Part shown: in pieces, positions 54,973-58,305 of the stretch
Layout of the letters: each line of letters starts with the position of its first letter
Position numbering within the stretch: the first letter of the stretch is position 1
Origin: an uncultured Prevotellaceae bacterium
GTDB lineage: Bacteria > Bacteroidota > Bacteroidia > Bacteroidales > Bacteroidaceae
Length of the DNA: 64,000 bases
Direction: 5' to 3'
Assembly (NCBI GenBank): GCA_946540735.1
Contig: CAMNIN010000010.1
Span: 1-64,000, forward strand
The notes under the pieces: generated by a model
The model's database searches: none
The model's input: the letters and a program-made list of their open reading frames with translations, nothing else
Told to the model about the DNA's origin: nothing
Made by a program: the position numbers and the translations under genes

Positions 54973-57900
54973 ATGAAGAAATTTTTTACATTGATGATGC
55001 TCCTGGCCTTCAGCGCATTACAGCTGTCGGCCCAGGAGCTGTTGCCCTTGGTGGGCAACTGGCGCTTTACCACTACGGGAACACCATCGTCGGACGGCAA
55101 CATCTATTCCGGCGATGTCACTCTGACAGGACAGTGGGGCGACATGGGAGGAGCCGCCTGGGCCGGAGAAGTGCCACCCGGCGGCAAATCGACCATCACG
55201 ATCAAGGTTTCGGAACCCCTGCCCGAAGGCTTCCAATGGAAGTACAACTATGTCGATGCCTCCGATGACAATGCCCAGTATGTGGGCTTTGCCGCCGGGC
55301 AGACCGAAGTGTCGTTTGTGTTTGAGCAGAACTACACCTTCCTGTCGCTCCAGTGGACCAAGAGCGACCCCGTCACCATCCATGTCCTGGCCGTGGAACG
55401 CACGGTGGAAGGCGATTTCCTCAAGGCCCCCGACCTCTCGTTCTCGCCCGCCTCGGTGAGGCTGGAGCCAGGCGACCCCTTCACTGCCCCGGTGCTCAGC
55501 AATCCCTACAACCTGCCTGTGACCTATTCGGCTACGGCCAATCCCTCAGGTTTTGTCACTGTCGACAGCCAGTCGGGAGCCGTCGCTCTCGGCGATGGCG
55601 AGGGTAGTGGCAAGGTGACCGCCACCTTCGCAGGCAATGACGAGTATGTGGCCGGCAGTGCCTCCTACACCATCACCGTGAGAAAGAAGGTGGAGGGCGG
55701 TATTCCACTGGTCTATGAGGTGGAAAACACGGGAGCCGATGTCTCACCGGTGCTCCCGAAGAAAGATGAGGCCCGCAAGGTAGATCCGCTGCCCGACCCC
55801 CTGGAATGGTCGGACGGCAGTGGCCGCGTGACCGAGTTCTCTGACTGGGCACAGCGCCGCGGTGAGATCGCCAAGGAGATACAGCACTACGAGATCGGCG
55901 AGAAACCCGTGGTCGATCCTTCGTCGGTTGTCGCCACGATGGAAGGCAACACGCTGAAAGTGGCCGTCACTGTCAATGGTCAGACGCTCAACCTCAGCGC
56001 CACCATCAGCTATCCCTCGACAGGTGAAGCCCCTTATCCCCTGATGATCGGTACGAGCGGCAACTCCCTGCCCGCGGCCATCTTCAGTTCGCGTCCTATC
56101 GCCACGATGACCTATTCCGAAAGCCAAGTTAACAATTACTCGCAGTTTGGCTCCCCCGCAGGTCGTGGCAACTATGAGTTTGACCGCCTCTATCCCGAAC
56201 TGAAAGACAACGGCGCCTACAGTGAATGGGCATGGGGCCTGAGCCGTCTGCTCGATGGCTTGCAGCAGCTCGGATCCGAAGTGACCAAGATCGATATGAG
56301 TCACATCGGCGTCACCGGCTGTTCGTATGCCGGCAAGATGGCCCTGTTCTGCGGAGCCTTTGATGAGCGTGTCGCCCTGACCATCGCCCAGGAGCCCGGA
56401 GGCGGCGGCGCAGCCGCATGGCGCTACTCTCGCTGGATCAACGCCCAGCCCAACGCCGAATCAGTGGAGGGGCTCGACAATACCGACTACAACTGGTTCA
56501 AGCAGAGCCTGCGCGACACCTATAACGGCAAGAACGTGTCGTATCTTCCCCACGACCATCATGAGTTGGCCGCAATGGTCTGTCCGCGCGCCCTTCTCAT
56601 GCTCGGCAACCCCGACTACACCTGGTTGGCCGACCCCTCGGGCTATGTCTCGATGAACGGCGCCCTGAAAGTGTGGGAACAGTTCGGCATCGAAGACCGT
56701 GTGGGCTATTCCATCGTCCCCGGTCATGGTCACTGCCAGTTGCCCACCGTGCAATACCCCGAGGTAGAAGCTTTCATCGACAAATACCTGCTGGGCAAGG
56801 AAGACGCCAACACCACCGTGCGCATCGCCCCCGCCAGCTATAAGGACATCGACCTCGACTGGTGGACCGGATGGTGGGGCAATGGCGAACCAGGTGAGTT
56901 CGGCGCCGATCCCGTGGTCTATCAGGGACCTGAGCCAGGCACCGAGACCTTCCTGCCCCTTGTAGGCAACTGGGCCAGTCGGGTGAGCGGCGAGGCTGCA
57001 GCCGACGGCAATATCTATAGCGGCACCGTCAATTTCACCGGACAGTGGGGTGAGGTAGGAGGCCGCGCCTGGGGTGCCGACGTCACCGAGGGCACCAAGC
57101 ACGTCATCACGGTGAAGACCGCCAATCCCGTGCCCGCCGGCATCCAGTGGAAGCTCGGCTACAAGGACGAGTTTGGAGAGCCCATCGGCGAGACCTATCC
57201 CGCCATTGAGTCCGTCGGCAATGAGATCAAGATCACTCTCACCCAGAGCTACTGGTATCTCGCCGTGCAGCGCATGAGCAGTTCGGGCATCGACCCGATG
57301 GAGATCCTCTCCGTCACCCGCGACGTCTACCTCACGGATTTCGCCCCCTCGAATGAGGACTTGGAAGTGCTGGTGGACTATGGTGCAGAGATCGAGGGTC
57401 ACCAGACCAGTGCCAACGGACTGCCAGCCACCGTCTCGCTGCCCGGCAACTGGGGCGACGTGAAACTCTGGGGCGAGCCGTTCAGCATCAATGCCTATCC
57501 GCGCTACCGCATCGAACTGGGCGAGGCCCCTGGTGCAGAAGGACGCCTGCAGATGTTCATCCGCAATCAGGCACAGGCCGATGCCTATGGCGGCCATTAC
57601 TATCCCTTCGCCGCCGACCAGACCGTTCTCGAGGGCACCTTCAATCCCAGCGACCTGGAGGAAGACCCTGTCGTCGTGCAGTTTGCCCTGCAGAACATGA
57701 CCAACAGCACCGTGCAGACCAAGGTCAATGATGTGGTGCTCTACCGTGCCGACGGCACCGCCGTCCATACCAGTGGACTGGTGGCCAGCGGTTGGAATCC
57801 CGCCACCATCACCCCGTTCGGATCAGAACCCGTCTATCAAGGCACGGTCAACTTCACGCAGCAGTATGCCTACGTGGGACCCTACAGCGGCGAGGTGGCC

Positions 57901-58305
57901 TCCGGCACCTATCATCATTTCACCTTCCACACCGATGCCCCTATCCCCGCCGGATTCCAGATGGTCACCGTGATCGGAGGCGATGTGCAGACCACACCAG
58001 TTGTGGCCGAGGGCCAAGCGTATACGTTTGATGTCTTCAGCGACTATTCATTCCTTGCCCTGCAGTATACGGGAGAGCAGACCTCGTCGGTCCACTTCGA
58101 CCGCATCACCCGCGAGGTGCTGGAGATCGATCCCACCGATATCCGTGGCATCACCACCGAGGAGTGCGACGTCGAGGTGGTCAGCACCCAGGTCTACAAC
58201 CTCTCCGGACAGCCCGTCAGTCAGTTGGGCAAGGGCGTCAACATCCTCAAGGAGAAACTCTCCAACGGTCGTGTCCGCACCCGTAAAGTGGTCGTGGCTG
58301 ATTAG
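54973..58305 (+). CDS. CE15-like glucuronoyl esterase with three copies of an uncharacterised accessory module and T9SS-like C-terminus
   Basis: IGVTGCSYAGKMALFCGAFDERVALTIAQEPGGGGAA; repeated LLPLVGNWRF/FLPLVGNWAS modules; C-terminal VYNLSGQPVSQLGKGVNI. Confidence 0.8.
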   Translation: MKKFFTLMMLLAFSALQLSAQELLPLVGNWRFTTTGTPSSDGNIYSGDVTLTGQWGDMGGAAWAGEVPPGGKSTITIKVSEPLPEGFQWKYNYVDASDDNAQYVGFAAGQTEVSFVFEQNYTFLSLQWTKSDPVTIHVLAVERTVEGDFLKAPDLSFSPASVRLEPGDPFTAPVLSNPYNLPVTYSATANPSGFVTVDSQSGAVALGDGEGSGKVTATFAGNDEYVAGSASYTITVRKKVEGGIPLVYEVENTGADVSPVLPKKDEARKVDPLPDPLEWSDGSGRVTEFSDWAQRRGEIAKEIQHYEIGEKPVVDPSSVVATMEGNTLKVAVTVNGQTLNLSATISYPSTGEAPYPLMIGTSGNSLPAAIFSSRPIATMTYSESQVNNYSQFGSPAGRGNYEFDRLYPELKDNGAYSEWAWGLSRLLDGLQQLGSEVTKIDMSHIGVTGCSYAGKMALFCGAFDERVALTIAQEPGGGGAAAWRYSRWINAQPNAESVEGLDNTDYNWFKQSLRDTYNGKNVSYLPHDHHELAAMVCPRALLMLGNPDYTWLADPSGYVSMNGALKVWEQFGIEDRVGYSIVPGHGHCQLPTVQYPEVEAFIDKYLLGKEDANTTVRIAPASYKDIDLDWWTGWWGNGEPGEFGADPVVYQGPEPGTETFLPLVGNWASRVSGEAAADGNIYSGTVNFTGQWGEVGGRAWGADVTEGTKHVITVKTANPVPAGIQWKLGYKDEFGEPIGETYPAIESVGNEIKITLTQSYWYLAVQRMSSSGIDPMEILSVTRDVYLTDFAPSNEDLEVLVDYGAEIEGHQTSANGLPATVSLPGNWGDVKLWGEPFSINAYPRYRIELGEAPGAEGRLQMFIRNQAQADAYGGHYYPFAADQTVLEGTFNPSDLEEDPVVVQFALQNMTNSTVQTKVNDVVLYRADGTAVHTSGLVASGWNPATITPFGSEPVYQGTVNFTQQYAYVGPYSGEVASGTYHHFTFHTDAPIPAGFQMVTVIGGDVQTTPVVAEGQAYTFDVFSDYSFLALQYTGEQTSSVHFDRITREVLEIDPTDIRGITTEECDVEVVSTQVYNLSGQPVSQLGKGVNILKEKLSNGRVRTRKVVVAD

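Follow-up and report, generated by a model that had tools for sequence, protein, structure and literature searches.

A predicted CE15-B esterase of a Prevotellaceae bacterium with four copies of a candidate carbohydrate-binding module

What do the parts of a secreted esterase that lie outside its catalytic domain do, and could they be binding modules? The question is raised by an open reading frame of an uncultured Prevotellaceae bacterium, of which Pfam matches only the CE15 catalytic domain (PF22244). The gene lies in a stretch of 64,000 nucleotides, here called the window, and its parts are the following (all on the + strand).

54973-58305, +: CE15 esterase, a single open reading frame of 1110 aa with signal peptide
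54973..55038, +: type I signal peptide, MKKFFTLMMLLAFSALQLSAQ (sequence)
55039..55410, +: module copy M1, aa 23-146 (profile and alignment)
55420..55692, +: Ig-like linker domain, aa 150-240 (weak Pfam matches, L069 sequence)
55705..56832, +: CE15 catalytic domain, aa 245-620 (PF22244, E=1.9e-66; PDB 8trx, E=9.5e-112)
56323-56325, +: catalytic Ser451, matched to PrCE15 Ser226
56392-56394, +: catalytic Glu474 (CE15-B position), matched to PrCE15 Glu249
56731-56733, +: catalytic His587, matched to PrCE15 His355
56950..57333, +: module copy M2, aa 660-787 (profile, alignment; AlphaFold2 model, Foldseek)
57340..57762, +: module copy X, a divergent long form, aa about 790-930 (held-out profile, AlphaFold2 model with M3)
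57820..58128, +: module copy M3, aa 950-1052 (profile, tree; the M partner in an X-M unit)
58129..58302, +: C-terminal tail VYNLSGQPV...GVNILKEKLSNGRVRTRKVVV (sequence), resembling a type IX secretion sorting signal

The first-pass annotation had called the protein a CE15-like esterase, and by its matches and active-site residues it is a genuine CE15. Its best PDB match and closest solved structure is PrCE15 of the anaerobic fungus Piromyces rhizinflata (PDB 8TRX), whose solved chain aligns with the catalytic part alone. The two share the Ser/Glu/His triad and a Cys-Cys pair, Cys450/Cys588 here and Cys225/Cys356 alongside Ser226, Glu249 and His355 in PrCE15 (PMC11345330). The nucleophile motif GXSRXGK is not found with its Arg; it reads GCSYAGK, with Tyr in place of Arg. 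PrCE15 shows the same replacement and still acts on benzyl glucuronate, and 26 of 35 anaerobic-fungal GEs show it too (PMC11345330), so that it is known inside CE15 and is no bar to membership. Because the triad and the Cys pair match and the Tyr is that of an active enzyme, the domain is treated as a CE15-B esterase, and it is probably active. Relative to PrCE15, the present protein has in addition its four M/X modules, the Ig-like domain and the tail that resembles a sorting signal. Multidomain CE15 enzymes have been described, and the Bacteroides eggerthii CE15-GH8 protein and the Caldicellulosiruptor kristjanssonii xylanase-CE15 protein with CBMs likewise join CE15 to other CAZyme modules (PMC8417218; Krska and Larsbrink 2020); the partners given there are GH8, a xylanase or known CBMs, whereas the M/X family has no name.

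The Ig-like linker has two weak matches that do not reach the cut-off, Big_3_5 with E=0.0064 and BACON_2 with E=0.0048. It is found only together with M1, and a similar segment precedes the CE15 of L069. For the tail, sorting by the type IX system is suggested only by resemblance; a GH8 relative has a similar C-terminal tail with a weak match to PF18962 (E=0.003).

M1 and M2 are 40% identical, and M3 is matched by a profile built from these two copies alone with E=2e-10, as against E=1.3 for the best of 1000 shuffles of M3. The three copies that had been reported earlier, with their positions and peptides, are thereby all confirmed, and in rumen Prevotella 11 related genes have retained all three. 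Across 12 orthologues M1 conserves W8, W33, W41, Q66, W67, K68 and Q105; the first six of these and a late Gln are kept in both M1 and M2. M3 has lost most of the tryptophans conserved in M1 and M2, and for this reason it may not bind. Mean identity among the 12 three-copy proteins is 87% for CE15, 83% for M1, 81% for X, 77% for M2, 75% for M3, 69% for the Ig-like domain and 56% for the tail; M1 and X are thus conserved nearly as strongly as the catalytic domain. A C7 match in the first module search of the own genome (E=0.27) was dropped as not significant.

The segment between M2 and M3 had been described as an unrelated sandwich-like region, and the copies had been counted as three. X has a mean column identity of 78% in 21 relatives. 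It finds no match of weight in the databases, and a direct hhalign comparison of M (A2) with X (A3) yields a 19-column linker match alone. The module profile and the X profile converge, in other proteins, on the same domains. When a profile of copies 1-3 was extended with non-CE15 proteins only, so that no CE15-borne X was in the training set, the match to the X of the window improved from E=0.18 to E=4e-18; the Ig-like, CE15 and tail segments gave E>100, and among 1000 shuffles the best reached 0.05-0.24. In the reverse direction, a profile started from X reached M1 (E=4e-7) and, weakly, M2 (0.005); M3 was not reached. The held-out match means that the enzyme carries four copies, X being a divergent one, and on this sequence evidence M1, M2, X and M3 form one superfamily in which M and X are homologous via intermediates.

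Database searches gave the superfamily no established identity. For the module there was no match above curated cut-off in Pfam or NCBIfam, where the best candidates, Cbm74 (E=0.15) and choice_anch_U (E=0.045), were rejected because their scores lie below it, and a sequence search of the PDB found none even at E=10. A strong match to an existing CBM or Ig family, which according to the first-pass annotation would have spoken against a new family, thus did not arise in Pfam, NCBIfam or PDB. Structure prediction, which it had also proposed, gave M2 a CBM-like fold: the AlphaFold2 model (61 sequences; pLDDT 96.3, pTM 0.88) is all-beta with nine strands, its best Foldseek match in the PDB is CBM29-2 (E=9.5e-4), and the top of the list consists mostly of CBMs, from families 29, 22, 35, 4, 16, 11 and 6. 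TM scores against CBM structures are mostly only 0.42-0.53 (rmsd 5-7 A, identity 10-17%) and therefore support the fold class and assign no family; M2 has the broad fold class in common with the solved CBM29, CBM22, CBM35, CBM4 and CBM16, not the family. By fold, then, the module is consistent with the CBM functional class at moderate TM. The X-M3 pair was modelled with pLDDT 94, and its Foldseek matches were two-domain artefacts with TM about 0.2.

The module resembles a CBM also in that it is a non-catalytic domain on several CAZyme families (CE15, GH5, GH26-GH5, GH8 and SASA). GH5 and GH26-GH5 enzymes carry it C-terminally, the GH5 enzymes as a single copy, one GH8 carries it N-terminally, and it is present on SASA acetylesterases, one of them from the same genome (G000:C45). 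A further protein combines it with CBM_4_9 and a dockerin, and its C-terminal end is GH30-like by eye, so that a GH30 protein is probably a host as well. Small secreted proteins of 314-360 aa (L075:6026-6967, L092:943-2022 and L096:1315-2265) lack a catalytic domain; they contain one or two domains of the superfamily and a tail of the sorting-signal type.

In the family-level census the superfamily was present in 18 of 299 genomes and in 6 of 22 genera, the hosts being nearly all Prevotella and close relatives. A class-wide sample of 296 genomes contained it in the window's own genome alone, and an order-wide sample of 198 genomes in that genome plus one weak partial match. Outside the family, the class-, order- and phylum-wide searches gave weak or partial matches only; one of these, in L112 (E=2.9e-4, 60 positions), was judged to be chance. 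Our reading of these searches is that the superfamily appears restricted to Bacteroidaceae.

Related genes have the architecture M-Ig-CE15-M-X-M (about 1110 aa), CE15-M-X-M (about 900 aa) or CE15-M (672 aa). In L068 and L069 the CE15 is module-free, and two secreted X-M proteins, stand-alone X-M-X-M and X-M arrays, sit between a SusC/SusD pair and that CE15. X-M is therefore fused to CE15 in the window and occurs in separate proteins in L068 and L069. In trees, M1 and M2 form a group of their own (support 88/91), and the X and M3 of CE15 proteins fall in parallel among stand-alone X and M domains; this parallel placement indicates that X-M behaves as one unit. That M and X would make up a new CBM clan of two subtypes, with X-M as a portable two-domain glycan receptor that is either fused to CE15 or deployed as separate secreted arrays beside a module-free CE15 in a PUL, is a tentative proposal to which we give somewhat less than an even chance. 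If it is true, one receptor serves the cell in two forms, attached to the esterase or set free as a wall-binding protein in its own right.

Downstream of the esterase gene lie the following genes.

58796..62083, +: SusC-like TonB-dependent receptor, the next gene (PF07715, E=6.3e-20)
62115..63809, +: SusD-like lipoprotein (PF14322 and PF07980)
L080:823-2598: putative SGBP after SusD, just outside the window

The SusC/SusD neighbours are conserved in only one close relative (L013), so that the PUL context is no general feature. The neighbours differ in other relatives: GH115 adjoins the modular CE15 in L021 and L026, and GH67-like genes stand beside SusD and X-M proteins at L068:4471-5643 (390 aa) and L069:9865-10788 (307 aa), neither product having the length that a complete GH67 needs. 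The glucuronic acid of xylan is the target of GH115 and GH67 enzymes, and these neighbours accordingly favour glucuronoxylan over RG-I. RG-I had been put forward as a target; it finds no genomic support, and since no pectin genes were seen among the annotated neighbours of modular CE15 genes it was rejected as the ligand.

Other neighbours recur as well. A protein with a CotH kinase domain is encoded directly downstream of CE15 at L015:13333-15075, L024:11384-13123, L026:11361-13160, L028:5822-7687 (identified by sequence similarity only) and L068:11107-14037, where it is joined to a GDSL esterase. The modular CE15 has a second CE15 beside it, of a single domain and with 75-81% identity to it in the catalytic part, at L014:634-1908, L015:8328-9605, L017:6875-8230 and L023:13559-14821.

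Elsewhere in the window, a 23-bp near-palindrome, GAGACGCCCCGATGTGACGTCTC, occurs 16 times, with none expected by chance. The sites lie at 7052-7131, 11794-11964, 18619-18692, 36080-36307, 50619-50737 and 58374-58445, often paired in inverted orientation at a distance of about 30-130 bp or arranged in tandem, and look like a REP/BIME-type element. At 40357-43557 a C10 (streptopain-type) peptidase with a Spi inhibitor propeptide carries a C-terminal type I dockerin, in a Prevotella, and at 50775-53713 a radical-SAM/SPASM protein (anSME-like) adjoins a sulfatase on the opposite strand.

We consider it likely that the four modules belong to one undescribed, glycan-binding beta-sandwich superfamily that holds a secreted CE15-B esterase on cell-wall glycan. 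In the proposed mechanism M1, M2, X and M3 would work as carbohydrate-binding modules of a secreted CE15-B glucuronoyl esterase and keep it on a glycan of the plant cell wall, for which glucuronoxylan is the likeliest candidate. The Ser-His-Glu triad would meanwhile hydrolyse the ester that links the glucuronoyl group to lignin, and from the tail and the SusC/SusD neighbours it seems that the enzyme acts at the cell surface. Four points of this mechanism are inferred: that the modules bind glycan, which glycan it is, that they tether the enzyme, and that display is at the surface. Beta-sandwich folds also have structural roles, tandem ones often serving as spacers, and the modules might instead be stalk domains, of the Ig-like or SGBP-spacer kind, that bind no sugar and serve to hold the esterase out from the cell surface. 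The Ig-like domain next to M1 would suit such a role, as would choice_anch_U, the only weak NCBIfam match. Spacers, however, usually diverge faster than the catalytic domain, which M1 and X do just slightly; it is the Ig-like segment that has clearly diverged (69%, against 81-83% for X and M1). The fold matches mainly CBMs, and on GH5 enzymes the single copy is C-terminal, the classic position of a CBM, so that we regard a pure spacer function as quite improbable. More improbable still is that the modules bind lignin or wall components that are not carbohydrates, or that they attach the enzyme to partner proteins encoded in the locus. This would fit the action of CE15 on lignin-carbohydrate esters and the X-M proteins encoded beside CE15, but the superfamily is also present on GH5, GH26 and GH8, whose polysaccharide substrates have no lignin esters.

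An alternative of another kind, unlikely in our estimation, would make the superfamily a divergent offshoot of a CAZy family already described, CBM72 and CBM112 being the most plausible ones; such an offshoot would still bind glycan, so the point concerns novelty and overlaps with the preferred reading of a glycan-binding superfamily. CBM72 (C5614-1) is a 134-aa module that is C-terminal on rumen GH5s and followed by a 40-aa basic tail (PMC4725902), a layout that matches the GH5-borne copies, and an alignment of a rumen GH5 C-terminal module with CBM72 and with a GH5 of P. ruminicola has been published (PMC3545987). The likeness extends to size, rumen origin, the C-terminal position on GH5 (for part of the superfamily), the short tail and the proposed type-B binding. 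The difference lies in the invariant aromatic spacing F372-W380-Y411-Y418-W423-F462, which exact and loose regular expressions, derived from the published residue positions, found in no M, X or GH5-borne copy among all ORFs; the corresponding DNA pattern matched once in 200 genomes of the genus and five times in a reversed control, that is, at chance level. CBM112, known as an insert in a Bacteroides GH26, is likewise of Bacteroidota, occurs C-terminal to GH5, on GH26, CE7 and SGBP-like proteins and in double-CBM proteins, and has two conserved Trp and a Gln in a type-B cleft, which we count as a likeness to the M/X copies (PMC13357471). Its published spacing W257-Q262-Q293-W301-Y310-H339 is matched by no module copy (regular expressions over all ORFs). 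CBM112 intercalates in GH26, whereas the M/X copies never do so in the loci seen; among GH26 proteins examined for a CBM112 insert there were none. The comparison by spacing is an indirect test, and the screens were those of Pfam, NCBIfam and PDB; the new carbohydrate-binding family that had been proposed therefore stays a candidate as to family status, while its other supports, the lack of a match in these databases, the CBM-like fold and the several plant-wall enzyme hosts, have held.

Much fibre degradation in the rumen is due to Prevotella, and little is known of how the few enzymes that they secrete grip the lignified wall. If a CBM-like family that Pfam does not recognise is spread over GH5, GH8, GH26 and CE15 enzymes, many C-terminal domains that now lack annotation would be accounted for. 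The modules allow a direct test of whether CE15 esterases target glucuronoxylan, and they would provide new binding modules for biomass work.
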